Positions 3,277 through 59,782 of a DNA stretch of 64,000 nt are shown piece by piece. Origin of the DNA: Ianthella basta (taxonomy: Eukaryota > Porifera > Demospongiae > Verongiida > Ianthellidae); NCBI GenBank assembly GCA_964019415.1, contig OZ025874.1, forward strand, positions 5,564,092-5,628,091, given 5' to 3'. Numbering within the stretch: position 1 is the stretch's first letter; the number at the start of each line of letters is the position of its first letter. The position numbers and the translations under genes are program-made. The notes beneath the pieces are model-generated. The model saw only the letters and a program-made list of their open reading frames with translations. It was not told where the DNA came from and searched no databases.

Positions 3277-6200
3277 ATGGCCACCGAAGCATCTCAAAGC
3301 GATTGTAGAACTCCTTTATCTACCAGAAATCGAAGTGAACTGACGTCTGATGACATAATGCTGACACAAAGCAAATCGCCTACGCCACTAACAACTTTGA
3401 CTCCGATTCGCGACCTTCATCCAACCTCAGGTAACTGTCTAATTCGTGCCAAGGTTGATCAACTGCGCAAGAAGGATTACAAAAATGGAAACGGTCATTT
3501 CTTTGAGATAAGGCTGTTGGACTGCCGTGAACCGGTTAGTGGAGCAGTAAAGTAAGCCAAGCATGTGTGACCACTTAGCTAGTAGCTAGTAGCTTGCTAG
3601 CTAAACTGAGTTCAGAATTTCCTTCAAGACCACAGCTAGATGAGACCTGTAACTACAGTTAGCTATGTGGATATTTGTAGCCACACGAGAACTGCAATGA
3701 CCACACAATTGCCAAAGACAAGCACTTCTCTTGTTTTAACCATATGTCTTAACACCATACTATAACCCCTTTCACATGACCAACTTTAAACTGGTTTTGA
3801 AGACGTTTTAAAAATAGTTTAAGTCGATTGCGTTCACATGGGCATTGTGACAGCTGGTTCAAAGGCAATGACATCATTATCCTGTGTTTGTTTAGTTGAT
3901 TAGGTGTGATCTTAAGATGGGGGTGACTGAATGTTCACTTGATTCGGGAATACAATTTCAAGCCTTTTAAGACCGACAGTAGAAGAAATTGCGCGAAATC
4001 ATGACCGCGATTGTTGCTGATAGAAACTGACGAAGTACGAAGCAACATTGACTGCTTTGGGTCAGGAACAGAAGCCAGTCCTTACCAGACCATTGTTTGC
4101 GTCTCAAGTTCGCTCTAAATCTGTCTACGATCCTTTCCTCTGTTAGCCATTTTATCGCACCTCTAACCCCCGCTTCACATGTGCAACTAACTTAGGTTCT
4201 GTTTACACGAAAATGTTTTCACGCGAACTCGTTTCAGGATGCTATTATTGACTTGACGTTTTCACGTGTTTACACAAGAACTTTCCCCTCGTTTGCATGG
4301 TAGCGCTCAAGGTGTCAGTTCGTTTAACAAAAAGCAAGATGGTGACACGGCGCGACAACCAGCAAGACAAAAACAAAGATAACTTTCAGTGGACTGATGA
4401 CGAGGCAGAGCTTCTGTTGGTGGTGACATATGAGTACTAGGTGAAGCACGCTAGAGAGTCTTCGGATTGGGAAAAGGTGAAGGCGAAGTATGCGGACATC
4501 CTTGCAATGTTTTGTGAGCAATTACCATCCGGAGCGGACGCAGCGGAAGAACTTAAGAAAGACTACCCCCACAAGCCGATAACCCTGAAGTGTCTGACGG
4601 CAAAGCTAAGAGCTGTTCAACTAAAATACCGGCAGGCGGTTGATTCGGGCAGGAGTGGCTATCATGTGCTACTTTGATCTCTGCAACCAGATTTGGGGTG
4701 GATCACCAGCGACAGATCAACTTCAATCTGGCGTTGAGAGTACTGACACGGCTTCAACTGGTGGGGAGCCATCAGATGCAATGCCAGATGCTTCTGGCAT
4801 TGGACCTGGTGAAGTTGAGGAGGACTCCATGCAACATTCACAAGGCAGCAATGATGGAGATAGAGAGGAAGGTGATGCAGAGACATCCACAGGTGAACAG
4901 TCAGATGCTATGCAGACGCCAAGCAGCGATAGACAAAACCAGGATTCATCTAGCCAGAGAACACTGCTGAATCAGCAGTTAGCCACATGCAGGCATCAGA
5001 AATTGAAGTGGAAGCTCCCTGTCGACTCACAGTTGCTGGAGTGTGCCCGGGAAGACCTGAAAGTTAAACGAAGCATGTTCGAAGAAATGAATAAGATGGA
5101 CAACATAGCACAGTTATCCGAACATGTCCCAGATGTCATCCACTGTGGCCGATGCATTTGCTACAAGGACCTAGTTCTTACTATTCAAGCAGAATGCCAT
5201 AGTTGAGCTTGACCAGCTAAAATACAGAGAAGAATGGACAGAATTCCAACAAGATTAGACAAATTCGTGGCTGTACTGATCCAAAAGGGCTATAGACTGG
5301 ACGTCACTTCGCTAGCATTCACCTTTACTTAGATTCCTTATGTGTCGATCGAATGTTGGACACCGCAGGACTCCAGATTCACAAGACTACAATCTTTGTG
5401 ATCTCTCCTAGCGATTTGCCCAATATACAGCACAATGAATCATTCAACAATAGCTATTATACAAGAAACGCTTGTAGGTTATGGCAGTTCTGTTTGCATA
5501 AGGCAAATCATAACACAGAGGTGTGAATTTCTCTGTTTCCGTGGCTACCCGCGTAATGTCGTGATGTGCGCATGATCTGCAATTTTCTTGGAAGGAAATC
5601 GTCTTAGAACATCGTATCTGGCAGCTAGGTATGTACCTAAGGACGAAACAAGCAGACTTGATCTAATCGTTTAAGCGAAAATGCCAAAGAGCCATGTGCT
5701 ATAATAGAAATATCACAAGGACGTCACGAGACATTGCCCCTGAAAGCGGGCTGTTATGATTGTTCGCAAAAAGAACTTTCTGGCTATTGGTATCGCCAGG
5801 TAGAGGCACATTGATGGCTCATTTCGCATGATAAGGAAATTATCTAGCTTTTCCATGTATGCATTGTTTGTTCTCATTTCCTGTGAGCAGCTACAAGGTG
5901 CAGAAGTTGGTCAGAGAGAAACAAAAGTTAGTTTTCTTGGTGTAACTTTGGATAGGATTAGTTTAACAGCAATGCATGCATGCAAAAGTAAGATCACATG
6001 TGTATGAACAGATTAATGTTCTTTCTGTTCCATTTAGACATTCCTCCGATAGCCAGAAACATATTTCCCGCTAATTTGATGGCTTCGTTAGTGGCGATAT
6101 TGCTCGGTGTAGCAAGGCGCCATCAGCAGATATGGTACGTAGACGTAGAGAGCTTAGTCTGTTCTTCTGGTACTTGTCTGACTTCAATTGAACAAAGCTT

Positions 6201-9200
6201 GCAGGAAATATAAGCAATTGTACAGAGGTAAAAAAATGGCCGCACGCAGCACCCGCATTGTTTACATAGCCATAACCCACATGCGAAGCGACGAGTCCGC
6301 AATCTTGCGTTTCATCTGAAAACATTGTTTTGCAGCGTTTACATGATGACGAACTGAGTACATTTTGAGCAAGAAACACTTCAGGGTGCGTCTTCATTTT
6401 CGAACGAAAACGCTAATGTTTCGGCCGTTCCCTAGTAAACGAGACATGGAAACACATTGATTTCGAAAGGAATATGGGCGAAAATGGTGCCATAAACCCA
6501 GTTTAACTGAACCAGTTTCGACCCGGTTTCACTAATTTTGCATTCACATGGGGAATTTTATTCGTACCATGCGCAAGCACGAGTGATGTAATGTGGAGTT
6601 GGAAAATGGCGTCGGTAGAGGATGCCGGTGGTTATCATGTGCTCCAGGCTCATTTGGCTTTGGAGACGGCGACAGCAGCGTATGAGAGCAACGAGAGAGA
6701 GAGACAATACCAGGAGGAGATGACTGATGGCGTTTTGACGGCAGCAAGCCGATGAACTCGCTACATTTACAACGCTGGTAATGTGAACACTTTTGCTTGG
6801 CAGTGTACACCAGACAAGGCCGGTATGGGTGAGAAACAGGAGCCATGCATTTCTAGACAAGGTTGTAGCACGATGGGATGAGGAAGAGTGGGCAGCAGTA
6901 CCTTAACAATCTTATTGTAGGCCTTAGCGGTCCTTTTTGAGCCCAACAGAAGTTTCTGGATTGTATCCGCGCTCCACGCGTCCACCAGTACTGCTGTTTT
7001 GCCATCCGACCGCGTCTTTCTCCTTTCGCCATTTTCTAACACCCTGAACCTTGTTACAACTGGGTCGAACCCACCTCCAGAATTGGGTTGTGCAAGCCGG
7101 GTTCAACCCAGTTACAAAATCAAAATTCCACACCTCAAAGGTGTGAAACTGGGTTCGACCCAGTTTGAAAGCGTCCATGTGAAAGGGTGTAAGATGATTT
7201 AGCAAAACCAGTTCACCTTTAGGTAGTAGGTACGGCTAAAATGACCAAATCAGTTGGCCTTCATTTTTAGTGGTTGAGTTATCTTCATCATCAGAAATCT
7301 TAACTGAAAGTTCCAAGTCTGTACTTTCATGCTGTCACAAGTTATGAAAGAATGAAAATTTGGCGATTTGCGTCAAACTCTAAGTGTTAATGGTCTGAAT
7401 TGTAATTGCTGACTGTTGGCAGCAGGGATGTTTATACGTATGGTACGGAAGGTGACAGGTGCAGACTTCGGCCTCTTGTGGGTGATCGTTCCACTTGCAA
7501 AGCTTGAAAGTTACTGGATTCTGCATTATAACTGTTCTTAGCGTTGGCTTAGTTAGCGAGTACAAAATGTTTCAATGGCACTTACTCTGGCATACCACTG
7601 TGTGTGCTAAAGGTGTTGCAGAGCTATCTAGTCTGAAGCGTTACAACCAATCTAAACGCGGTTTGCTTCATCGTGTAGAGCATTATGTTGGGCAGATTCC
7701 TATGGCAGCGATAACGGAAAATCGTTTCTGTGATCGAGTTATCGCAAATTTCGTAAGTTGAAAAGGGATAGAGAATAACTCCACAATGAGATGGAAACTA
7801 GTAAATCACTGCCATAGGTTTGTGCACACACGTCTAAAGGTTGTATATCCCAGATTTGGTCAATCTCAGCCTTTGGGGGTAGAAGAAGATCGAATTTCCC
7901 TGGAGTTGCTTGACTTCAATCAAGGTGATAATTTTTCACTTTCACTTAGATTATCTCAATAAGGGAATCACCGATCAATTAACAAGTGACACCAAATTAT
8001 GGGAAATTTACCTGTTTATCACATTTGTAATAATCATCATTGGTGGATTTATGGTTTGAGAGTTGCATAGGCAAAAGTAATGTACCCTAAAGGAAGCTTT
8101 TAGCTGTACCTACTACCTTAAACCTGCTCCAGAGCACTGGTTTAAGTAAACTGGTTTTGAAACCGGTTTAGCATTTTTAGAACAGTTTAAGTGCCCATGT
8201 GAATGCGCTAAATCATTTGATGTGGCCATGTGAAAGGGGGGTATGATAGCTATGTAGCTGGCTAACTAGTTAGCGCACTCAGGGGCGTAGGGAGGGGGGT
8301 TTCTGGGGGTTTCAGGAAACCCCTTTCAAAATAATAGTACCAATAAAACTGAAGAGAAGTAGCTGCTGCAAACTTAGCTGGTGCTTGAGGTAGTGTAGCC
8401 AATGACCTTTTTGTAGCTGGTCCACTATAGGAGACAGTTTTGAATTTACATCGTTTCCCTCATTATTTCAGTTGCAAAAATGGACAACCTCACGTTTGGC
8501 GGTCAGTTTGATTATGTAATATGACGTCATTCTTAGCATTAACCAGAAACCCCCTTACGAAATTCCTGGCTATGCCCCTGGCACTACTTCCCTTTGCTTT
8601 GCAGGATGTGGAAATTAGAGCTGTTGCTTTCAATGAAGTAGGCAACCTGCTGTCCCCCTTACTTGAGGAAGGGAAGTGTTACACTATTCAACACTTTACA
8701 GTCAAAGAGTGTAATCCACAATACCCTGCAAAGCATCAATGTGAGCTTCATTTCAACAATAAGACGAAGGTAGTGGAAGACCCAAGTTCCCCTTCTCCAG
8801 AAATGGAAAACTTGAGTGGATCACAAACAGGTGAAAATTTAATTTATTGCTAAATTGCAGGATGTTTCCATCAGAAGATCTTAATGCACGTTATGTTCTG
8901 CCTAACTCACTCACTTTCACAACTCTATAAACCGAGCTCAACAGTATGCATATACTTTTCATCAGCTTGAACTAAGTTCGTTAGCTCAAATTAAAACCAC
9001 TTGTGCCTCAGTTCTAATTAGTGCCTACTAGTGCAATAGTTAGCTAGCTATAGAGGTTGATTCTAACGGCCCTGGTGAAAAGTATTCATGTACGAGTATA
9101 TATCCTTTAGTTTCATCCGTTTCTCCACAGTAATAGTTTGAGAGGATGAAGCATGCAATTATGCATGCATCTTACTATAATGCACCAGATCTCGGTTTAT

Positions 9201-12200
9201 GTGTTTGTTTAGTCATAAAATTGGCACCTTGCAGGGAATCGGTTCAGGACACTCCATGCCAGTTGAGGGACTGGGCGGGCATGTTCTTAGAGGGGTACCG
9301 TTCACCTAGCTGCCTTGCGGCCGAAGAGCGTGATTCCTCCGTCCATTCTCTGCAGGCCGACATGCCATTTTTAGGGGCTGTCTGTGGCAGCCCCTATAAT
9401 ATATTGTTTTCAAGTTGAGATTCTGTAGTATGGCTTCATGTTACGGATATATACCGTATAGTGGGAAATATTGGTGAGGCATTTTGTGGCAATTTTGTTG
9501 GTTTGGTTGTTTTCAGAAAATCCGCCAAATTAAAACCCCGCCAATATACTGGCTAATAGTTATATACACACGCAATACAGTATAATAAGTATACATAGGA
9601 GTATGTAGCAGTTCATTACGCACATGCGTTGCAGTCGATCGATCGCACGGTGGCCCAGTTGAAGTATGTACAGAGAGAAGGACCTATGCTCAAGTGTGAC
9701 ATTCTCTCAAGGAAGGAGACAAAACGTGAACAAACGCGTGAGGCAAGCTACACGAAGAGAGAGTGGATTTGGTGCAGCTGTAAACGGTCCCGCTATTAAG
9801 CACTTCGCAGTGCCTGAAACAACTGCAAGAGGGCTGAAATCCGAATACCTGCAGAAGTTGAAGGCAATGCAGCATGCTGAGAACACAACCGTTGTGGTGA
9901 AGTTGCTGCCCACGAGGCCACAGGAAGGCCTCTTCTCCTTGGCTGTTGACAGCCATTCTGCGACGTCATTGGTCTGGGGATCGAAGCCCTCCAAATTTAA
10001 AAACTGCCAATTGCCTTTCAGGGCAAATCTGCCAAATTTTATGCCTGCCAATATTTCCTGCTATATGGTATATAATTATAACTTGCACTGGTAGTCTTGT
10101 TCCTAGTAGCACTGGTACATATACTGCATGCGTAGATTGCAACTTGCACTGTGATAGTTGTGGTGGTGGTAGTGGTGTCATGCATGGAAGTAGTGCCATG
10201 CACGGGATAGTAGAATATGGTGGTTGTATAATATAATATTTGGGCACGTGACATTATAGGTGTATGGTGATGTTGGCTGTATTTGTATGTGGCAGTCATG
10301 CAGTGCTGGCACTTGCTTTTCATAACAGAGAAGGACTACACACTTTTACAGTATATAGTGCATTATTGTAGTACAATGATAGGGCTTCATGTTGATGTCA
10401 AACATGCATTTTGCAGATTTTATCTGGAGGAGAAAGAAAGGGAATTTGCCTGCACAATATTTACATTGGATATGTACGATACACATATAATTATACATAC
10501 GTCAATAGTTACATGTTTATAGCTTTAAGGAGGACTGTAATTAAATTGGAGCAAGAAGGGTTACTAGACTAAGTTATAAACATGCAGCCAGTAAAGAACT
10601 CTGTATCACCAACCCTTTGTAATTGCAACCACAGGTTCTCTCCACTGTCATGCACTTTGTATCTTCTGCTTTGCACAGCTACACCATGTACCAGTGGGCT
10701 ACAACCTACACCAAACCGTGCTAAATCTGGCCCAAAAGGCACCTCACCAAGGATAATAGCAAAGATACAGGAATATGGTCCAGATTTTAGTGCTCCTTGC
10801 ATTCGAAGAAAGCTTTTGGAGGATAGAATTTGCACCAATGAAACATTGCCTTCTGTCTCCACAATCAACAAGTATAAAAGACAGAGTCAAGATGGAGCAC
10901 AGAAACTAACAAGTACGTAATGGAACGTAATGGTATTTATTGCTTTGAGTGATCAGTACTGTCGTGGAGCCTCATTGTTACATTGTTTCCTATAAGCGAA
11001 TAGATTGTGAGCAATAATGTAGCAGAATCAATCACCAGCTGATTGCAGAACATTTCGACCATGTAGGCCTTTGTCAGCTGCATATAAAAATTCTAACAAA
11101 ACTTTACAAAGTTATGTATGCAGCTGGTGAAGGCCTACATAGCCACAACATGCTTAAATCATTTGATTGATTCTGCAATTTCACTGCATGTAATTTATTC
11201 ACCTGTATTTATTGCCCAGGTACACGTGTTTCAATTCAATTTTAGGTTGCACTTATGGCAGCAGCTGATTGCTAATAATGTAATCTTTTTTGATGTAGAA
11301 GGAACCCCCCAATCTGCAGCTTCTGGGCAAAAGAGGCAATCCCCTGCTGGATTGTCTAGATCTGCATCTAAGAAAGCTAAGGAAGGTGAGACACTAGTTA
11401 AATGGAAAGGTACAGTTTACCAGCACCATTGGGGAAAGTTCCAGAGATTTAATGGAGAAAGAGGTGCCTGCATGTAATAGATGCAAAGTCTGAGGGATTT
11501 TCAGAGTACACCGCTCGCATGTGGGCTATGTTTTATGTAAACAATATGGCTTCCACGCACACAAATATGTGTCTGTCTATTTTTGCTTCCTCTTTCCTGC
11601 GTGGAGATTACTTGGGATTGCAGTAAATCATACAATATCGTTATCCAGGACCTACACTCTTATACTCTGTGCATGCTTGATTAGTTCCTGTGCTGGCCTT
11701 GTAGACTGAGAAATCCTGTCGTGATTAAGATCAGTTGATGAACTGAGACAAAATACTAGCTGTTCTATTGGATTTAGGTGCATTGAATGAACACACATTA
11801 CGCATGTGGGTTATGCCAGCATTATTTACATAGGGTGAACCGTGTGGTATTATGACATTCTTCTCTATTACCATGGCTTTGCATGTGACTGAGCATGGTA
11901 TGCGCATGATTTGAGAGCCTGGATTGAGCAAAAATGCAGAATTTGTTCATCCTGTCTGAAGTATTTACGAGGAAAAGCATTCTTTGTTGCAGCAAGACAT
12001 CTGCGCACGGCTTGTAGACGGTTGTGCAGTCATTTTCAATGGCTTTGTTCAAACGAATTATGCCACTTCAGCAGGAAGTCACAATATTGTCATGCGATAC
12101 GCCTGCAAAGTGGTTATTTTACCATTGCTTTCACTGAATGGCTGTGCCATAGTCATTGAGAAGGTTTCTTCATGGGATGAAGATAAAAATGGTTAGTCAA

Positions 12201-15200
12201 CTGAATTCTCTAACTTCTCAATGTGGGCAAATGCTACGCAAGGTTTCTATCTAGATTTACATGACTCTAAACATTTTTAACCAGCAAGTAGTCACAGTGT
12301 TTTTTATCATAGCTTCATAGTAGAATGGTTTAACAACTTTGCTCACATGGAAAAGTTAGATAGCACAATTGCACATCGAATGATGCCATTTTCATTAGTC
12401 TGAGATATTCCCTTCAGTACGGCAAGGGCATTTACCTCTATTTTAGTGCCTTTGCTATTGACGATATAACTCGCTGTAGTAAAGCTGAATTAACAAATGT
12501 TGTGCACAGCGATACAAAGAGGTTCTCTGTCTCGTTCACGGTACTTGTCTTGTTCTGATCCAGCTGCGCCAGTAAAAGATAGAAGCGAAAATACTAAGGT
12601 CATAATCAGCTGCATGCAGCACCCGCATTGTTTACATATATAGCCATAACTCACATGCGTACCATGGCAATGGGATCTATATAGTGTAAATGGTTTGTAA
12701 GATACTAATATGGTCAGCATTGGCAAGCTACAATAAGGTATAGAAACCCTAATGCACAGACACTGCACATGCCTTTTGGGGGCACCAAAAAAGCATGTCC
12801 CTATATTGTTTTCAGATTTAGATATTCATATGGCTTCATGTTCGTATATTATTGCCCTGCTGAAAGGCGAGGCAAGTAATGATGCGTTGTCGTCCCTGTT
12901 TATATATGTATGTATTTATGTATATATGTATATACGTCCCAGTCAACCCGAGACACCTAGATTGTGCAATTGCCTGGTGTTCTGCCATCCAGTGCTTTGT
13001 CTGGCTTGCTATTCCTTCTTTCTGACAGCCAGTGACAGCAGATTTCAGTTCTATTACCCAAAATGTACTTGCCCTGACCAAGTTACGCTCATGCACTGTA
13101 CTTACATTCAAGCGAGGCTGGTTGCATTTTAATGTATGCCCTAGTATATTTCTGTCGTTGCAAATGGCAGCACTCGCATCCTTTACAAAGCTTAAAATCA
13201 TCTTTAATGGGTTTTTGCTGTCTCTCAAATGAACAAAATGTGTTAATAAGCAGGTGTTAATAGAGTGATACTTGTAAAAAGCTTAACAAAAGACTCTTCT
13301 GTGAGATACAGCTCCAATTATCATAGATGAACATTGTAAAATGGCCGTGCTCGACGCTCTCTGTTTGCTGGGCTTTAAAACTACTTTCTTTGTATTTTGC
13401 CATGTATCCAAAGAACGCAAAGTCTTTCTGGAACATGTTTAAGTAATAGTAGTGTGGTAGAAAGGTTACCTAACTATTCTCCTGCGAGGTTCAGCCCCAA
13501 ATACAACAGAGGTCAAACAGCCCGTGTAATTGAATCATGACATTACCACTTAGGGTAGCCTGTTTAGCCAGCGCACTCCTCCTCCAGGCACAATGCATGT
13601 GGGACATGGCATATGCCCAATAACAATGTGACCGCAAGCACAGTAAAAATTTGGCTTCCGTATTCTCTCATCTCTCTGCCAGATCGTGCCCGAATTGTGC
13701 AAGCTTGGCATCAATCTGAACTCCTATTGGTGTGGTACATAGTGTCCTTAGTGAATAATTGTTCTCTATTCCGGGATAGGCATTAGTAACTACAGTAAAA
13801 TAGCACAAATCATTGTTGTGGCAAGTGAGAGAGAGGCTGAATCAGAAATGAAGAGTATGGTACGATACAGAATTAAACACTAACTTTTGCATGTGAGCGC
13901 ATTTCCTAGCTAATTCTGCTGTAAAGTCACGTCAATAAATGTAACTTCTTACCCGCCCCCAAAATGTTGCGCACCCTATAACTCTTCACAGGAGCATCTG
14001 ATTGCAAGCGCTCACATGGAAAAGTTAGATCTTTTTGTTGGCTTTTGAAGTGCATCTTTGCCGTGTGTCAGTGTAACAAGCTCACTTGCAACACGAAGAT
14101 TTGCTGAATAGACTCGTTGCCATCTTCACGGGCAGCCATTGTCACCTGATTTTGCCATGACACCCTGCTAAAATGTCGTAACACTTACTAGTGGACCTTT
14201 GGAAAATGACTGTGTAACCGTCTTAGAGCTGCGCACCAATGTCTGGCTGCTATCAGGAACGATTAGCTTCATGAATGAAGCACATTTGTGCGGCGAGTCC
14301 TACGTTTTGTACAGTTTGTCTTGCGAGTCACACGCACGTTAAGCACTGTCACATGCATAACACGGTAACGTCAAAGAATGTGATAAAACTGCACGGTTCA
14401 TGCTATGTAAACGAACTTAGACATGTCCTACGTGCGAAAGTAACATGTACATCCTCATTCATTATGTTATGTAGATCAAAAAGCACTAGCAATTATAGCA
14501 TTTTCACAGTTTGGTTGGGGTGCTTTCACCGTATGACTTGCTGGTCTGGGGGACTTGAAGCCCTTTGCATGTGGGTTATGTCTGCTGCTGCCAAACATTG
14601 TTTACATGGGGTGAATCATGGCTTTATCACATTCTTCTGTGTTACCGTGGCTATGCATGTGACTGCACGTGATATTCGTGTGATTTGAGAGCCTGAATTG
14701 TTCAGAAATGCAGAATTTGTCATTTCACGTCTGTGCGTGGCTTGAAGAAGGCTAAGCAGTCGTTCTCGAGGGCACATTTGAACGGATGACAATGGCTGTT
14801 CAGCATGGCTGCCACTACAGTTCTGAAGAATATCATTGTGTGGATAGCGGTCTTGCGAGAAAAAAGACACAGAGAAGGCTTGCTTCAGAAGCAAAGACAG
14901 TGATCTAGCATTTCCCTGTGAGCATTTGTTGTGCGATGTTCCAGTGCGGAGCTATAAGGTGCATACGTAACTCGAAACAAAGGGGGAAGAATTTTGTTTT
15001 CTTGATGTAACTGCAGCGGTGTAATTTACAAACTTCGCTCATTTGGAAAAGTTAGAATGCATGATTGTGTATTGTGCTATGTGCTTAGTTTCTTGCTGAG
15101 CCTCTGCATCGCTATCCACACCGACAATATGTGCTATTTACTGGGTTACTTGACTGCAATATTTTTCTTATAGAAGACTGACTATCCCCAAGTTTTAATC

Positions 15201-18200
15201 ATACAATTGTAGTGCAAGGATAGGCGTTTACGGTGATACCAAACACAAGTTCATCAAATATGATTTGGAGGAGAAATAGGAGGAAATACAGAAACAAATT
15301 ATTCACCTGCACAGAAGCCCCATTGTTTGCATAGCAAATAACCCACATGCATTGCAACCCCAACAGTCTATAGCATCGTGATGTATCTTTCAGGCTGTCA
15401 GCAATGCTGCATCCCCAACTATCTGAACTATTGACATACACGGGGAAGTTGCTAGCGACTTTTCATCACACTTTGACGTGGAACAGTACCATGCATGATC
15501 TGTCCAAAACCATCTTTAGACATGGTGTTCCCCTGAGCATACATAAGCTTTCAATTTACTTGATGTACCCACATACACTGTTCTTCACTTCCATTCTTAG
15601 ACTACCAATTTTGCAGTTGTTTTTATGTCATATCCATTGTCAGTGCATGCATGATTCCACTTATTCTGGGTGATTCTCTGTCCACATCATGCTACACACA
15701 GTATCGCCTTCAACATGCATACATAGTTATGATTGTGGCCTACCAGCTGGCATACCCAGGCAGATTGATGTCAATGTATTATAAGTGGAATAAGTGCCAA
15801 GTTATCATCATCATGTAAACGTTTATTGTGTAAAAAGTTAGTTTGTGCAAATACAATCTGATGCTGAGTTTGTAAATGATGCTAATGAGTTTGAGGCACG
15901 AACAGAAGATGGAAGTGAGTGCCACAGGGACACACCAAGGAAGCTGAATGAGTGTTGATAGGACGACTTGACAGATAGAAGATTTATTTGATCTCTCTTG
16001 CGAGTGGAGTAATTGTGGGATGGTGTCTTGACAAGAGTAGATAGGTAGGAAGGCCGGAGCAAGAGAGTTGTGGCATTTGGACTTAAGATATGGCGTTCCC
16101 CTGAGCATACATAAGCTTCCATTTTTTATTACTTGATGTGCCCACATACACTGTTCTTCACTTCCATTCTTAGACTACCAATTTTGCAGTTGTTTCTATG
16201 TCATATCCATTGTCAGTGCATGCATGATTCCACTTATTCTGGGTGATTCTCTGTCCACATCATGCTACACACAACATCGCCTACAACATACATGCATAGC
16301 TATGATTGTGGCCTACCAGCTGGCATACCCGCACAATCATAAGCCACACTGTCGTGGAGTAGCTATCACGGATCAGCCGTCGTGGAGACGCCGGAGCAGG
16401 GAAGCCCGCCTTCGGCGGGCTTCCCTGCTAGTGTCTTTATAATCATGAAACTCATGATAAAAAGATGCACAGCTAAAGCAATTGAAAAGAAACAGTTACA
16501 GAAATATCTAAATTGTTTGCAGCCGTAGTACTAAAAATGATTGCTTCTGTTTTGTCAATGAATATTAACGAGAACCTTTATACGTATATACAGCCACCTG
16601 TGTATTACAACCAGCAAGTTTGTCTCCCAAGGGTGACCACATTAGACAGGTTCCACTGTATGTATATGCTGGCTACACATTGTCCTTGAGAAATAGCTAA
16701 TCTGGCTTACTAGACCATCCCAACAAGCACTAGGGAGGTGTGGAAGGGGAGTCTAGAAACATAGTAGTAATTAGTTCGCACCTCACAGTTAGCTACCATA
16801 AATTGTCCAAAGTGGAAGGTGTTCAGTAAACAGACTGATTGTAGGAATATCCTTAATATATTTAATCTTTTCCAGTCTGTGCATCTGCTTGTGCGTGGCA
16901 TTAAAAACGGGCATTTGATTGGACGACGCCATGACATAACCGCAAACATGGCCGCTCTGGCAGTGTGAATGTGCCTTGCCGCCAGCCGTCTCTTAGACAC
17001 TCCATGCTCCTCAGTTTGGGTCTCCCAGGCGCGACGCGCACTTGCGCAGAAGTGCGCTGTTATTTTCTGGTGAGAAGGAACTGCTCTGGCTACCGGTACG
17101 TGGACATTTTTCGCTATTTGGGTACTTTAGCTGTCAGTGTTCTGGGCTGCTGAAAGCCCTTTCTCTGTGGCGAAGTAAGCTATTGGGCAGAAAGCTTGCT
17201 TGGCTTAGGCACTGCCTTATTGGTTAAGGAAAGACATGACCAAGCAATTCTTTTTACATGGTGTATATAGGTGTAGCTAGCTATATGTGCATGCAAGTGT
17301 ATGACAGTGCAAACAAGATCAGCACTATACTCATGCAGTGTCACCCAGCTGCAATCACCCAAATGGTGATGGATGGCCTGCATTCCACTGGGCGACGCGA
17401 TGCGGAGCGAGCGCAGCCGAAGGCCGCACTGGCTTGTATAGCTATAATATTTTACTTATATATGATGGTCGGATGCAGATGTAGTCCAGCCAGCTTAGGC
17501 CTACGTACGACGCAATCACCGACGCACCGGAGGCAGGAAGGAAAAACGAAGGTCCAGTAACAGTCATTTGGATTGTGCAATATTCAATCAATAGTACGTG
17601 TAAACCCTTTGTCCTTAGGGAAACAGCATCTGACAGTGACAAGCTGGATTGTAGAAGAGTCTGTTGCATTCAAGTGCCATGTTTCTAAAGACAAAGGGTT
17701 TACACATACTATTATTGCAAACCACAAGCTATGAATACTATTGACCAAGATTTTAGTCTAAACGATCTCATTGGTCGAACATTGCACAATCCAAACGACT
17801 GTTGCTGGACCCACGTTATTCCTTCCCACCCCCAGTACTTCGGTGCTTTCACTGTACGTGGGTCCAAAGCTGGCTGGACTAATGCAGATGCAACACCAAT
17901 TGTTCAAACACTTCTGCCGATCATGTGATCATGAGCCTCTTTCATCAGCGAAATACAACCTTTTGCAGCCAGGTGATCTTGTATGTTGTTGTTGACCTCA
18001 CTCTATGAATTCTTTTGCTTATGTTTCTTGGCAGTAGCATCAAAAGTCGCGTGCAAGGTGTGAACTAATGCTATGTTTGCTAGATCGTCCTTCCCTTTCC
18101 ATGCATGCCCTCCTGGCAATTATTGGGATGGTCTAGCTAGCCAGATTAGAGAAAGTGCATACCATTTTATATTTTACTGCAGCCACGGACCAAACTGATG

Positions 18201-19186
18201 ACCAGCCAAAACAGCAGGCGGATGAGCCACAAGTGAGGTTTGCTATCCTCACTGCAAACTCAACAGAGCACATGTGTGTGAAAAAATACCTCACTCTTGG
18301 TGACATATCCGACAAAATCTGGAGGGATGCTCGTGACTGCAACTGTAAGAATGACCCCTACTTACAGAAGAAAAACATAGCAGTCACTCATCTAGAGCAG
18401 CAGTGTGATGGTGATTATGAAATGTTTCAGGTCATGGACAGCACTTCTGCAGTGAAAGGAGTGCACTTCAGTTGCACAAATATAGGTCCATGGGATGCCT
18501 TCGAAAGGACTCAGGATATCTTGCTTGAGGCTAAGCACAGGAAGTGGCCACTGAAGCTAATCTGTGTACTTGGATGTTGTGGAGCATCTATCAGTGAAGA
18601 AAAGAAGCAAGAAAAGGACTGGCACGGCACTGTTCTTCTGACAGAGCAGCTAAAAGAATACCTGAACACAGGGAAAGCTGTTCCAGATGGCACGTCATGC
18701 TTGTCTCGCACACATGGTCTGAGTCAGAAATGGCTGAGACTGTTGACCGAATCTGGAATCTCAGAACCTGCAGGAGTTGTTGGAGATGAATACAAGAGTA
18801 TTCCCACTGCAAAAGTGCACCAGTACCTGTCTGGCCCACTTGTCATCAAAGAAGGCAGCTTTGCAGATCAAATTCGTGATTCCAGTGTTCCAATTGCAGG
18901 CATTGAGATGGAAGTCATTGGAGTAGTGAATGCTGTGAAAGCAACAAAGAAAGTGATAGAAAGTGTATGCCCAGGAAGGCTTGTTCCAGAACCTGAAGTC
19001 ACTGTTGTCAAAGGAATTTCTGACTACACTGGTGACAAAGGAGTGTCTAGCAAATCAGCATTCTTTGGCAGGGAAATTGATGATGCTGGCGACAACATCC
19101 GCCAACAAATTGCCACGTTTAATGCTATTGCACTGTTGATGCGATGTGTGGCAAATAACCTGAAGCATCTCCTAAGGGATGACTGA
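3277..19186 (+). CDS. OB-fold / paired-type HTH / PNP-domain protein (5-exon model, 602 aa)
   Basis: Proposed exons: 3277-3534, 8605-8830, 10679-10912, 11299-11385 and 18183-19186. All have GT-AG borders and compatible phases (0,1,1,1), and the total is divisible by three. Residues 53-147 match the RPA70 DNA-binding OB fold (CLIRAKV, FFEIRLLD, DVEIRAVAFNE, CELHFNN). Residues 180-232 match the RED half of a Pax paired domain (TSPRIIAKIQEY, TLPSVSTINK). Residues 251-267 form a bipartite NLS pattern (KR, 11 residues, KKAK). Residues 286-600 are a purine nucleoside phosphorylase/nucleosidase-type domain with GCCGAS, the ribose-binding GIEME (508-512) and the catalytic-Asp motif ISDYTG (D549). I infer nuclear or nucleic-acid recognition coupled to N-glycosidic cleavage; substrate unknown. 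Upstream in-frame ATG 3238 is an alternative start. The last join, across a 6.8-kb intron, is the weakest; a separate PNP gene is the alternative. Confidence 0.62.
4339..5206 (+). pseudogene. Harbinger-associated Myb/SANT-like DNA-binding protein, broken
   Basis: The reading frame begins near 4339 with the trihelix pattern WTDDEAELLL and is interrupted by an in-frame TAG at 4438-4440. It resumes with WEKVKAKYADIL, the conserved DYPHKP and FRQAVDSGR-like region, and then needs a frameshift near 4665 to reach YFDLCNQIWGGSPAT at 4670 onward. This order is typical of the accessory DNA-binding protein of PIF/Harbinger elements in invertebrates. One stop and one frameshift make it non-functional. 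Confidence 0.7.
5469..6285. mobile_element. MITE, 'CATGTGGGTTATG' family, copy a
   Basis: About 817 bp with terminal inverted repeats: left cgcttgtaggttatggc, right gccataacccacatgcg. Internal blocks are shared with the copies at 11801 and 14566 (gtttccgtggctac..., gctacaaggtgcag..., ttttcttggtgtaac). No coding capacity is seen. Confidence 0.65.
8280..8580. mobile_element. hAT-like MITE ending 24 bp before exon 2
   Basis: The left end is caggggcgtag and the right end is the inverse of ccaggggcatagcc. The inner portions (gggggtttctgg and ccagaaacccc) also pair. CAGGGGCGTAG termini are typical of hAT elements. Both sides are flanked by GCACT, a possible partial target-site duplication. The right end abuts the polypyrimidine tract of the exon-2 acceptor at 8604. 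Confidence 0.65.
8831..9447 (+). other. Intron 2 of the OB-fold/PNP gene, 5' part
   Basis: No recognisable gene or element. A 90-codon open frame at 9146-9418 has no family resemblance. Short gctagctagc runs occur. Confidence 0.4.
9448..10074. mobile_element. TIR DNA element carrying a truncated transposon ORF
   Basis: The ends match as inverted repeats over about 45 bases (tatataccgtatagtggg on the left; the right end reads ctatatggtatata on the plus strand). The interior plus-strand frame 9666-9950 contains IKHFAVPETTARGLKSEYLQ, a helix-turn-helix style recurrent in transposon-linked genes of sponges and cnidarians. The frame degenerates afterwards, so this is a non-autonomous copy in intron 2. 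Confidence 0.6.
11062..11142. repeat. Short inverted repeat in intron 3
   Basis: taggcctttgtcagctgcat (from 11063) is repeated as near-perfect reverse complement at 11120-11141 (gcagctggtgaaggccta), giving a 20-odd-bp stem with a loop of about 30 bases. Confidence 0.5.
11801..12659. mobile_element. MITE, 'CATGTGGGTTATG' family, copy b
   Basis: 859 bp, starting cgcatgtgggttatgcc and ending with the inverted form (gccataactcacatgcg). The internal sequence aligns with copies a and c (for example ggctttgcatgtgactgagc). A frame at 11993-12193 looks exon-like (acceptor ttgttgcag, donor gttagt) but lies entirely in the repeat and its homologous region in copy c is not open, so I do not call it coding. 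Confidence 0.7.
12660..14565 (+). other. Intron 4 of the OB-fold/PNP gene, repeat-rich filler
   Basis: No convincing exon. A 13830-14060 segment shares the motif gctcacatggaaaagttaga with the MITE copies and is probably a further fragment. Open frames at 12752-13232 look like no family. Confidence 0.35.
14566..15351. mobile_element. MITE, 'CATGTGGGTTATG' family, copy c
   Basis: 786 bp from tgcatgtgggttatg to the inverted end aataacccacatgca. It shares internal blocks with copies a and b, including ttaccgtggctatgcatgtg and ttttcttgatgtaactg. Confidence 0.7.
15522..15762. repeat. Direct repeat flanking a LINE fragment, left copy
   Basis: About 241 bases beginning atggtgttcccctgagcat and ending at agctggcataccc, repeated with few changes at 16089-16334. 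Confidence 0.8.
15778..16122 (-). pseudogene. 3' end of a LINE (non-LTR retrotransposon) reverse-transcriptase ORF
   Basis: The minus-strand frame ends with the pattern SFSFLGVSLWHSLPSSVR, the characteristic C-terminal motif of non-LTR retrotransposon polymerases (FxxxxxxxWNSLPxxxR-type). It is severely 5'-truncated, has no catalytic domain, and lies between two copies of a 241-bp direct repeat. Confidence 0.6.
16089..16334. repeat. Direct repeat flanking a LINE fragment, right copy
   Basis: Second copy of 15522-15762; the two differ by small indels (an extra ttta-type insertion near 16125) and scattered substitutions. Confidence 0.8.
16395..16429. repeat. Perfect 16-bp GC-rich hairpin
   Basis: agcagggaagcccgcc is followed by ttc and then its exact reverse complement. 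It sits in intron 4 in otherwise AT-richer DNA. It could be the core of a foldback element or a structured RNA element; nothing else identifies it. Confidence 0.7.
17470..17895. repeat. Inverted duplication, about 150-200-bp arms
   Basis: Left arm about 17470-17625; right arm about 17688-17895. Shared blocks (left read in reverse complement) include gacaaagggtttacac, ttgcacaatccaaa and agctggctggacta. The right arm has a roughly 45-bp insertion relative to the left. It lies in intron 4, 290 bp upstream of the PNP exon. Confidence 0.7.
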
Positions 19187-21786: not shown

Positions 21787-22425
21787 TCATGCGCTGTCAC
21801 CGGAAGCCACATCAAGGGGTGTCACCGGGAGTTGCGGGATTGCCTTCCTCAAGGCGGCCATCCAACATCCAGGCAGCTCCAGCCCACCATCCCTGTTGAG
21901 GGAGGGGTGGTTCAGCCTGATGTGGATTGCCTCCTTGAGCATCAGTTCTTTGGAGGTCCTGGCTTGGTCGATCACTGTTGTCTCCTCCCATTTGATTGGA
22001 TGGTGGTTCTCCCACGCATGTTCTGCAAGGGCTGACTTCTCCAGTGTCCCCTTCTGACAGGCATCCTGGTGCTCTTTCATTCTTGTCTCGAGCCTCCTCA
22101 GTGTCTCCCCAATGTAGATCTCGCCACAGCTGCATGGGACTTGATACACCACCTTGGACTTCTTCTCCAGCGCCAGTGTGTCCTTCACCTTGGTTAGCAT
22201 GGAACGTAGAGACAGTCCAGACTTGAAGACAACCTTCATGCCGAATTTCCTACAGACCCGTCTGATGTCCTCACTGACTCCTTCCGTGTAGGGAAGCATC
22301 ACCAGTGGGGGTCTGCGTCCCTCCTCCGGCAGTGGCTCCTCAGTGGTCTCCACATCTCGCCTGGAAGGAATGGATGAGGAGCGGATGAAGTTACTGGGGT
22401 AACCATTCTGTCTCAGCACCTCGGT
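21787..22425 (-). pseudogene. Inverted GIY-YIG domain copy of the Penelope-like element
   Basis: The minus-strand frame contains the element's C-terminal region: RRVCRKFGMKVVF, then the GIY-YIG nuclease signature VPCSCGEIYIGET with RLETRMKEHQ, and ends ...TPLDVASGDSA at 21787. It lacks the RT domain. It is the left, inverted arm of the composite insertion and is not an independent gene. Confidence 0.85.
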
Positions 22426-24305
22426 GGTCTCCTCCATAGCTGCAGTAGAGGAAGGAGCAAGGCAGCTGAGTGAAGAAGATGCTGAGGATCTCCGGGGAAG
22501 GGTATGTGGGATCCTTAGGCATGCCAAGCCTCCGAAGGACAACCTGACCAAGGAGCAGAGGAAGGCCCTGAAGGAGCTAAGAAGCCTGGAGGATGAAGTG
22601 ATCCTGCCGGCTGACAAGGGTAACGCCACAGTGATGATAACGAGAGAGGACTATGACAGGAAGATGAGAGGGATGTTGGATACAGCCACCTACAAACGAC
22701 TGAAGAAGGACCCTACTGCTACCCAGGAGGGAAAGCTGAGTCGAAGACTGAAGGGGCTGGAGAAGGATGGAGAGATCACAGGGCATCTATACCACCAGCT
22801 CAGGCCATCCGGCAGCCAACCTCCCAGGATCTACGGCCTCCCGAAGATCCACAAGGCAGAAGTTCTTCTCAGACCCATTGTCTCATGCATTGGGGCCCCT
22901 TCTTACCAACTCTCCAAACACATCGCCTCTCTCATCTCTCCCTTGGCAGGCAAGACGGACTCACATGTGAAGAACTCCAAGCATTTTGTGGAGGTGATGT
23001 CAGACCTGAGGGTCGAGGAGGACGAGATGCTGGTCAGCTTTGACGTATCCTCCCTGTTCACCAATGTGCCCATCGACGAGGCAGTTCAGGTCATTCGTGA
23101 CAGACTGCGAAGGGATGAAACGCTGGTGAACAGGACCACTCTCTCTCCTGACAGGGTTACAGAACTGCTTGAGACGTGCTTGAAGTCCACCTATTTCTGC
23201 TACAGAGGAGAGTTCTATGAACAACGGGAAGGTGCAGCAATGGGTTCCCCTGTCTCAGCAGTGGTGGCGAACCTGTACATGTAGTTCTTCGAAGAACTGG
23301 CACTCAGGTCCGCCCCAACCAAGCCCCGGCTCTGGAAGAGGTACGTGGATGACACCTGCTGCATCATGAAGAAGGGCACAATGGAAGGACTCCTGAGCCA
23401 CCTCAACAGTGTGCGGCCATCCATCAAGTTCACTGTGGAAGTGGAGAAGGAAGGGAGCCTCCCCTTTCTTGACGCCCTGCTCCAGAGGAAAGATGATGGC
23501 AACTTGGGTCACTGTCTACAGGAAGCCCACACACACGGACCGGTACCTGGACTTCCGGTCCCACCATCCATCTCACGTCAAAAGAGGGCTGGTCAGATGT
23601 CTGTACGACAGAGCAAGGAGCATCACCACCAGGCAGGAGGACTTACAGAAGGAAGAGTGTCACCTCACCGAGGTGCTGAGACAGAATGGTTACCCCAGTA
23701 ACTTCATCCGCTCCTCATCCATTCCTTCCAGGCGAGATGTGGAGACCACTGAGGAGCCACTGCCGGAGGAGGGACGCAGACCCCCACTGGTGATGCTTCC
23801 CTACACAAAAGGAGTCAGTGAGGACATCAGACGGGTCTGTAGGAAATTCGGCATGAAGGTTGTCTTCAAGTCTGGACTGTCTCTACGTTCCATGCTAACC
23901 AAGGTGAAGGACACACTGGCGCTGGAGAAGAAGTCCAAGGTGGTGTATCAAGTCCCATGCAGCTGTGGCGAGATCTACATTGGGGAGACACTGAGGAGGC
24001 TCGAGACAAGAATGAAAGAGCACCAGGATGCCTGTCAGAAGGGGACACTGGAGAAGTCAGCCCTTGCAGAACATGCGTGGGAGAACCACCATCCAATCAA
24101 ATGGGAGGAGACAACAGTGATCGACCAAGCCAGGACCTCCAAAGAACTGATGCTCAAGGAGGCAATCCACATCAGGCTGAACCACCCCTCCCTCAACAGG
24201 GATGGTGGGCTGGAGCTGCCTGGATGTTGGATGGCTGCCTTGAGGAAGGCAATCCCGCAACTCCCGGTGACACCCCTTGATGTGGCTTCCGGTGACAGCG
24301 CATGA
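22426..24305 (+). pseudogene. Penelope-like element ORF (RT plus GIY-YIG), one stop and one frameshift
   Basis: Frame 1 (to 23281) covers the N-terminal region and RT fingers/palm: ADKGNATVMI, IYGLPKIHK, LVSFDVSSLFTNVPI and AAMGSPVSAVVANLYM. An in-frame TAG at 23282-23284 replaces the expected Glu before FFEELAL. RT motif RYVDDT follows at about 23338. A frameshift near 23510 moves to the frame TVYRKPTHTDRYL, which continues through the linker to the GIY-YIG nuclease (CSCGEIYIGET at about 23960-23996) and stops at 24303. Catalytic RT Asp residues and GIY-YIG residues are present, so decay is slight and recent. Confidence 0.88.
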
Positions 24306-39668: not shown

Positions 39669-42600
39669 TGTGCGTATGTGTGTATAGTGCATCACATGTG
39701 CTCATCCTATTACCCATGAGCTCTCCTCCCTATGCCAGGACCAACGCTGGCCGAGGCAGAGCCTGGTTAAGGTGGTCTCTGATGCAGAAACGCTCAGCAG
39801 ATTTCTTCAAGGCATTTGTGGAACGCAGAAACATTGTCAGGTACTGCAGTGTGTGAGTGTGAGGTGTGCAGGTGTGGGGTGAGAGGGTGAGAGGGTGAGG
39901 GGGTGAAGGAGTGAGGGATGATACTGGTGAGGGGTGAGGAGTGAGAGGGTGGCTTGGGATCGCTGTAAGTGGGTTAGGTACAGTATGACGTTCTTCCCTT
40001 GCTCATCTCTGTAGTGAGTGGTATGACCCTGAGGCCTTCCTGCTCAATGAAGAGGGCATGGTTATGAGTGGCCTGCTAATGGGGCTCAATGTCATTGACT
40101 ACAATGTCATCATGAAGGGAGAGGATTATGACAGACCTGTAAGTGGGTGGGTGGGGCATGTGTAGTGGGTGTTGCTGCACACAGGGTGTGTAGTGTTGGG
40201 TGTGCAGAGGAACCACATTGAGGTGACAGTAGACCATCAGCTGCAGTGGAAGCTTGCATCATCACAAATTTCTTGCTATCCTTCTCCTCCTTCCCCCTCT
40301 CCTATATACGTACATAACTCTCTCCTTCTCCATACCCTCCCTTGTCCCCATCTCCACACCCTCACATCCTATGCCATCTCTGTTCCCTCCCCCCTCCCCC
40401 CTCCCCCCCTCCCACAGCTGGGTGTTGTTGACCTCAGCCAGTACCTTAGAGATGGAAACTATCTTGCTAGACCAACTGATGAGAGTGAACCTGAGTCCTC
40501 TGCAGAGCCAGACAAGGTAGACACTACATCCTTGGCCAGGTTGATGGACCAGAAGGCCTTCTTGGAGGAAAGAAACAGAAAGCTAGAGTAAGTTTTCAAA
40601 ACAATGTCCTGGACAGTTGTGTTTGTATTTCAGAATGTGGTCATATGATTGCGTGCTGCATAAGGGCTCATTCCATCTTCAGTATTCATACAATGTATAT
40701 TGTATGTACTTCATGTCCTGCCTACAGCCATCACTTAGCACTCTCCTTTACTCTGCACTATTCCACTACTTCGTATGCTACACACAAACATGTACTGCCA
40801 TTGTTTATACTTCTTCTCCCAACCTGTGTTCCTTCTGTCCATTATGTTCTCTAACACTTACACCTGTATGGTAGTATTCCATCCTCCCCACTGCTTCGTG
40901 CAGGTCGATGGTGGAGAGGCTGCAGAAGGACCTGGACACCAAGACAGCAGAGAGTGAAGGACTGGCTGCCACCCTGCATAGCTTGGAGACTGCTGCCAGT
41001 GAGGCCACCAGTGAGAAGGAGAAGTTGAAAATATTAGTAGATCGCTCTTCAGAGGACATGGAGAGGGTTCTACAGGTGAGGAGGGAGGGGAGGTGTTTGG
41101 GATGAGGAGGGAGGGGAGGTGTTTGGGGTGAGGAGGGAGGGGAGGTGTTTGGGATGAGGAGGGAGGGGAGGTGTTTGGGATGAGGAGGGAGGGGAGGTGT
41201 TTGGGATGAGGAGGGAGGGGAGGTGTTTGGGATGAGGAGGGAGGGGAGGTGTTTGGGGTGAGGAGGGAGGGGAGGTGTTTGGGATGAGGAGGGAGGGGAG
41301 GTGTTTGGGGTGAGGAGGGAGGGGAGGTGTTTGGGATGAGGAGGGAGGGGAGGTGTTTGGGATGAGGAGGGAGGGGAGGTGTTTGGGATGAGGAGGGAGG
41401 GGAGGTGTTTGGGATGAGGAGGGAGGGGAGGTGTTTGGGGTGAGGAGGGAGGGGAGGTGTCTGGGATGAGGAAGGAGGGGAGGTGTCTGAGGTGAGGAGG
41501 GAGGGGAGGTGTTTGGGATGAGGAGGGAGGGGAGGTGTTTGGGATGAGGAGGGAGGGGAGGTGTTTGGGGTGAGGAGGGAGGGGAGGTGTCTGGGATGAG
41601 GAGGGAGGGGAGGTGTTTGGGATGAGGAGGGAGGGGAGGTGTTTGGGATGAGGAGGGAGGGGAGGTGTTTGAGATGAGGAGGGAGGGGAGGTGTTTGGGA
41701 TGAGGAGGGAGGGGAGGTGTTTGGGATGAGGAGGGAGGGGAGGTGTTTGGGATGAGGAGGAGGGGGGTGTTGGGATGAGGAGGGAGGGAAGTGTTTGGGG
41801 TGCGGAGGAAGGTGAGTGCTTGGAATGAAGTAGGAGGGTGTTCCAGTGAGGAGGGAGGGTGAGGATGTAGTAGTATTTGGGGTGAGGAGTGTTAGGTGTA
41901 TGAGTGGCATTGGCAGCCGCACTCATCCTTGCATACGTGCCTTCATGTTTTCTTACAATTGCCATGCACCATGCAGAGCTTCCAAGATGACAGAGAGATA
42001 GAGAGAGACACTCTTTCTACTGCTCGGTGAGTCCTTCGCTTCACTGTGTGTGAGTTAACTGTAGGTAGTCAACTTATATGCTGTACCATTGCACTTACGT
42101 ACATAGCTGCCTGGTGTCTGTGAGGCAAAGGCTACAGTAGTATTCAGCCCTACACTACTACCTGTGTGTCTTGTGTCTCTTTGTATCTCCCTGTGTATCT
42201 AAATGTTTAGCCTAGGGGAGTTTGGCTTCTATAGATAGCAATGTACTCTCTCTCAATGTTTAAAGAGTACAAAATTATTCTCCTTTAAGGACTGCTAGAC
42301 AGCTGGCTTATCATTCATTGTCCATTATACTGTAGATTCCTGATAAGTTCTAGGTCCCCTGGCCTCTGGCCCAAACATTGATATGGCAGGAACCTATCTA
42401 TAGTAGCCACTGTATAAATGTGTCATCTGTTGTGTTGTGTACACCTGTATGTCTCCCCCTGTGTGTGCTGCAGTGAAGGTATCAAGGACTTGTACTCTGC
42501 TAGTCAGAAGCAGTTGGACACAGAGATGAAACTACGTCTGGACATGGAGCGCCAGCTGGAGGTGCAACGGAGCCTCCGGATGGAGAAAGAGGTATGAGAA

Positions 42601-56799: not shown

Positions 56800-59782
<2,983 letters not shown>

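Follow-up and report, generated by a model that had tools for sequence, protein, structure and literature searches.

The analysed window is a stretch of 64,000 nucleotides (G000:C7:5564092-5628091) of the 209 Mb genome of the sponge Ianthella basta, which is represented by 96 contigs. A putative gene of five exons was revealed in this window (Table 1). The joined exons, rebuilt from the sequence, comprise 1809 nt and encode 602 codons followed by TGA. All four introns are of the GT-AG type and have phases 0, 1, 1 and 1; their donor contexts agree with the consensus at 7, 7, 7 and 8 of 9 positions, respectively, and their acceptors are CAG, CAG, TAG and CAG. Thus, the phase-matched frame of 602 codons proposed in a preliminary description of this DNA was fully reproduced. 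The predicted order of domains (OB fold, RED half of a paired domain, PNP-type nucleosidase) appears to be unusual and was met once.

Table 1. Coordinates of the putative five-exon gene, of the conserved motifs in its last exon and of the RED-like and death-like exons on contig C18. Positions are those of the window unless another locus is named.
Feature	Position	Strand	Description
Exon 1	3277-3534	+	First half of OB fold after start codon and unstructured N-terminus; end phase 0
Exon 2	8605-8830	+	Second half of RPA70 DBD-A-like OB fold; end phase 1
Exon 3	10679-10912	+	RED half of paired domain, Pax-type; both ends phase 1
Exon 4 (least certain)	11299-11385	+	29-codon linker with bipartite-NLS-like pattern; both ends phase 1
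Intron 4 of the model	11386-18182	+	6797 bp; putative join of the nucleic-acid-binding part to the enzyme part
Exon 5	18183-19186	+	PNP/MTAN-type nucleosidase domain and stop codon; start phase 1
Glu241-Met242-Glu243 (exon 5 numbering)	18905-18913	+	GIEME motif, substrate-binding type; invariant in 23 of 23 rows
Ser279-Asp280 (exon 5 numbering)	19019-19024	+	KGISD motif; invariant in 23 of 23 rows
RED-like exons, L044 (G000:C18:6462500-6472400)	178-417, 1140-1439, 8335-8637 of L044		
Death-like exons, L044 (G000:C18:6462500-6472400)	803-1150, 6020-6500 of L044		
Third death-like exon, C18 locus	C18:6462217-6462501		

Domains of the predicted protein

The product of exons 1 and 2 matched RPA70 DBD-A (PDB chains 1jmc, 1.5e-8, and 1fgu, 1.8e-8) at residues 41-143. 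Since this alignment runs through the exon 1/2 junction, located at residues 86/87, the two exons can be considered as one unit. This independent search supports the ssDNA-binding type of OB fold suggested earlier, and the only Pfam family found for this part was DUF223 (4.4e-4, under the cut-off). The motif EIRA.AFNE and the aromatic residue at the ..Q(F/Y).. position are conserved in the alignment to RPA70, in which these positions include DNA-contact residues. Like RPA70 DBD-A, the region forms one OB fold of about 100 residues; unlike RPA70, the 602-residue model contains a single OB match, with neither tandem OB domains nor any further RPA domain recognised in it.

Exon 3 matched the Pfam PAX family (4.7e-8, 33.4 bits with a cut-off of 22) at profile positions 70-123 of 125 and, in the search of PDB chains, Pax5 (2.8e-6). 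The RED half of a paired domain, also claimed in the preliminary description, is thereby borne out. This half is shared with Pax proteins, while the match is limited to the above positions and the PAI half is absent; therefore, the 602-residue model is not classed as a Pax protein.

The pattern in exon 4 consists of KR, 11 residues and KKAK. It was noticed by eye and is only a pattern, i.e., a candidate nuclear localisation signal. We know of no homologue of this exon, and no DNA copy of its 87 nt was found elsewhere in the genome. Since both its ends are in the same phase, it can be skipped without loss of the frame, which makes exon 4, together with the NLS pattern, the weakest part of the model.

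No PNP match was detected in Pfam for the 602-residue protein or in the NCBIfam scan of exon 5, and searches of solved chains (PDB) with PNP sequences gave no match. The curated score of PNP_UDP_1 was reached neither by this protein nor by its best paralogue, which is 43% identical to exon 5 (3.6e-5, 23.7 bits vs a cut-off of 25.1). The assignment to the PNP/UDP phosphorylase superfamily rests on fold and motifs. The predicted structure of exon 5 has the fold of this superfamily (PNP/UDP phosphorylase, MTAN-like), and its top structural matches are MTA/SAH nucleosidases. Unlike MTAN, the domain is approximately 100 residues longer, and its identity to MTAN is low (8-17% among the 50 matches listed). 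The GIEME and KGISD motifs are aligned to AVEME and RAISD of E. coli MTAN, respectively (hhalign E 0.0012, probability 19.6%), and the residues that are invariant across the PNP alignment are retained in exon 5. By analogy with MTAN, Asp280 may be the catalytic Asp. Thus, from the PNP domain announced in the preliminary description, the MTA/SAH nucleosidase fold and the EME and SD motifs were recovered and a Pfam or NCBIfam match of its own was not. The profile searches of each exon that the same description had proposed gave PAX over its cut-off, DUF223 below the cut-off in place of an RPA OB family, and no PNP_UDP_1.

Among the defence models of PADLOC, PDC-M60C matched exon 5 weakly (8.2e-4), and the PN-superfamily Effector model matched the paralogue L040 (8.3e-5) and the protein P0014 (1.1e-3). 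When the PNP alignment was run against bacterial genomes and P0002 against viral contigs, pattern matches were obtained, none of which was confirmed.

Relatives of the exons in the genome and in other species

The PNP exons are an expanded family in this genome. In total, 39 rows matched exon 5, including the window itself, some of them being fragments of one copy; 24 of the 39 are clustered on the minus strand at C7:420168-1067951, and four contain stop codons. A very long open frame among these matches (mostly N) was dropped. In the nearest four paralogues (L002-L005) the PNP exon, judged by eye, begins directly after AG in phase 1.

Two copies located at C7:4.375 Mb and 4.394 Mb are 98% identical. 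About 1.6 kb upstream of its PNP exon the former has an ATG exon of 110 codons with a phase-1 donor, which is probably a weakly CARD-like first exon (CARD_2 0.09 and CARD 0.11 for L041:6883-7368, far under the Pfam cut-off). Searched against the genome, this exon matched 38 rows up to E 10; L041:6883-7368 found nothing useful in the PDB. At the same locus, L041:4769-5062 scored 0.18 against Pfam Death. A further death-like exon, with no match in Pfam, was noticed at C7:696 kb, about 12 kb upstream of the PNP copy C7:682606. It should be noted that the death-fold labels are weak and mostly assigned by eye. For the whole genome, Pfam Death yielded 437 candidates, 150 of which were scored, and a death-like query from contig C18 yielded 633, again with 150 scored; TRADD_N was not found over the cut-off (5 rows, best 0.24). 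The window locus would thus be the odd one of the family, with a predicted OB fold and RED half at the place where other PNP copies appear to have a death-type front.

In the protein database, where the 7998 candidates sharing most words with the spliced protein were scored, the PNP exon was found at 66-72% identity in P0002-P0005; the 51-55% of the query covered corresponds to the PNP part. In P0002 and P0005 the similarity to exon 5, examined by eye, begins after the exon border, with none before it. In P0003 and P0004 the PNP exon opens with a Met as its first full codon, and therefore these relatives may start there.

A 201-residue query covering both the OB and the RED exons revealed no further copy of either in the genome. 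Of the 26 rows obtained up to E 10, three belong to its own locus; the next best were the true Pax gene of this genome at C7:7.65 Mb (1.4e-4; PAX 1.2e-34), a locus on C18 (0.006) and a locus on C14 (0.04). In the same protein database, which does contain the PNP exons at the identity level given above, the OB exons found two proteins, both from the contig of the window and none from other species, and the RED exon found no protein; such searches detect only proteins from called open frames that have words in common with the query. In line with the preliminary description, whose author knew of no such protein, the same domain order was not found in other proteomes of this database. Similarly, no published report of an OB-RED-PNP order was recognised in the open-licence full-text literature, a weak negative since most subscription journals lie outside this scope.

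The C18 locus (C18:6462217-6471124) contains three RED-like exons alternating with three exons that look death-fold-like. One of the RED-like exons exceeded the cut-off of PAX (1.3e-5; Pax6 1.1e-5) and a second one was just below it (6.4e-4), while two of the death-like exons had no match in Pfam. A trypsin-like reading of the ORF that follows the RED exons was dropped, as searches gave no support. In the bolder version of the mechanism given below, this locus would make the RED half a recurring part of the defence proteins of this animal.

Gene structure and possible role

The splicing of exons 1-4 to exon 5 is predicted from phases and sequence, and we consider it fairly probable that all five belong to one gene. 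The first ATG in the frame of exon 5 is at 18272, with none before residue 30 of the exon, and the first strand of the domain occupies residues 17-23. Since no in-frame ATG precedes this strand, exon 5 needs an upstream exon. This favours one gene, as do the agreeing phases, the phase-1 start of the PNP exon in the four nearest paralogues and the ATG exon upstream of the PNP exon at C7:4.375 Mb. An upstream exon might also lie inside intron 4 if two genes were adjacent, one encoding an OB-RED protein (exons 1-3 or 1-4 with an unrecognised last exon) and the other a PNP protein with a short first exon of its own. A candidate of 30 codons does extend from an ATG at 17882 to a phase-1 donor at 17972 (7 of 9 consensus positions), 210 bp before exon 5. 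The Met of P0003 and P0004, the length of intron 4 (6.8 kb, partly repeats) and the failure to find OB/RED relatives in other species of the protein database, beside PNP or away from it, also favour two genes. However, the two candidate first exons with a phase-1 donor in this intron are at chance level (about three expected, given a mean of 0.43 per kb on each strand of the window), and the one described has no recognised domain. The frames of exons 3 and 4 soon stop after their donors, at 10920 and 11477, and AATAAA/ATTAAA is not met after them before 13872, nor, it should be said, after exon 5 before 20000. Altogether, we regard two genes as somewhat unlikely. The open frames of intron 4 gave nothing below E 4 with four death-fold-like queries, which speaks for one gene. 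The codon usage of exons 1-4 is not distinctive, as 6-27% of open intron stretches score equally high, and this counts, if anything, against it; neither codon usage nor the poly-A signals discriminated. Very improbable, in our opinion, is a decayed or chance assembly, in which formerly functional exons were split by insertions and are no longer expressed as one protein. It would agree with the stretches in introns 1 (1002 of 5070 bp) and 4 (1615 of 6797 bp) that match repeats, being also present in other genome loci compared, with the lack of a relative of the same domain order in the genome and protein database searches, and with the stop codons in some PNP rows. Against it, all five exons are open, the splice sites are usable and exon 5 has kept the invariant residues.

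Should the exons form one gene, the protein might still have a housekeeping role in the nucleus, as a nucleosidase that tunes methylation or repair by clearing MTA or S-adenosylhomocysteine in the vicinity of DNA, with the OB fold and RED half serving only to anchor it on chromatin. The structural matches to MTA/SAH nucleosidases and the motifs shared with E. coli MTAN are in keeping with this, but the substrate is not readable at such low identity, and the PNP copies are numerous and diverged (39 rows), unlike a housekeeping enzyme. Moreover, the company of the family in sponges, according to excerpts of Kaur et al. (2021; PMC8195603), consists of Death-like and TRADD-N domains. This role thus looks quite improbable. 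The explanation that we favour, tentatively and at slightly less than an even chance, is a single five-exon gene for a PNPase effector of immune type, 602 residues long, with a nucleic-acid-binding front. The sensor and nucleotide-destroying effector imagined in the preliminary description gains in part from the family context, i.e., the expanded PNP family, the probable, weakly CARD-like first exon and the domain company just cited.

According to this favoured explanation, the RPA70-like OB fold and the Pax-type RED helix-turn-helix would take the place of the usual death-fold front. The OB fold would engage single-stranded and the RED half double-stranded DNA, exposed or foreign, and this binding would cluster copies of the protein. 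Enzymes of the MTAN/PNP superfamily are oligomeric. The C-terminal domain would then cleave an adenine nucleotide or nucleoside at its glycosidic bond, depleting this pool in the infected or damaged cell. The nuclear location, DNA binding, trigger, substrate and any cell-death outcome are all suppositions drawn from the domains. A bolder version, rather unlikely in our estimate, is a self-contained animal DNA-sensing nucleosidase: a nuclear polypeptide whose RPA-like OB fold and Pax-type half switch on the PNP-type effector directly, so that adenine nucleotides are destroyed and the death-fold adaptors of its relatives are bypassed.

Detocs-type ATP nucleosidases convert ATP to adenine and ribose-5'-triphosphate. 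In Detocs and other anti-phage systems, according to excerpts of PMC11249213, a PNP-type domain has been proposed as the effector; the window protein resembles such effectors in its putative PNP-type domain, with weak matches to PADLOC models. Unlike Detocs, the predicted gene is an animal one, contains introns and has no two-component partner, and ATP cleavage by its product is putative. For the sponge Amphimedon, Kaur et al. (2021; PMC8195603, excerpts) describe proteins in which Death-like and TRADD-N domains are followed by a variable C-terminus that may be a PNPase. The likeness to these proteins, as far as the excerpts describe them, includes the C-terminal PNP-type domain, the expanded family and the variable fronts on effectors; unlike them, the 602 residues contain no recognised Death-like or TRADD-N domain and carry OB and RED in front. 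If the join of the exons is true, a nucleotide-destroying domain of bacterial type was wired in an animal directly to nucleic-acid-binding modules whose origin lies in replication (RPA) and in the control of development (Pax). It would represent a compact sensor-effector and an example of phase-1 exon shuffling in the building of invertebrate immune repertoires.

Other features of the window

Two open frames, at 4625-5206 in intron 1 and 9663-10094 in intron 2, have by eye the look of transposon remnants, for which Pfam gave no support. At 21787-24305, a reverse-transcriptase-like frame is situated between two near-identical inverted frames; judged by eye, the latter resemble GIY-YIG endonucleases and the whole arrangement a Penelope-like element. 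Strand-biased tandem repeats with units of 26, 63, 38 and 2 bp are located at 41077-41828, 46463-46870, 47557-47888 and 58856-59178, respectively, and coincide with regions of sharp GC-skew swings.
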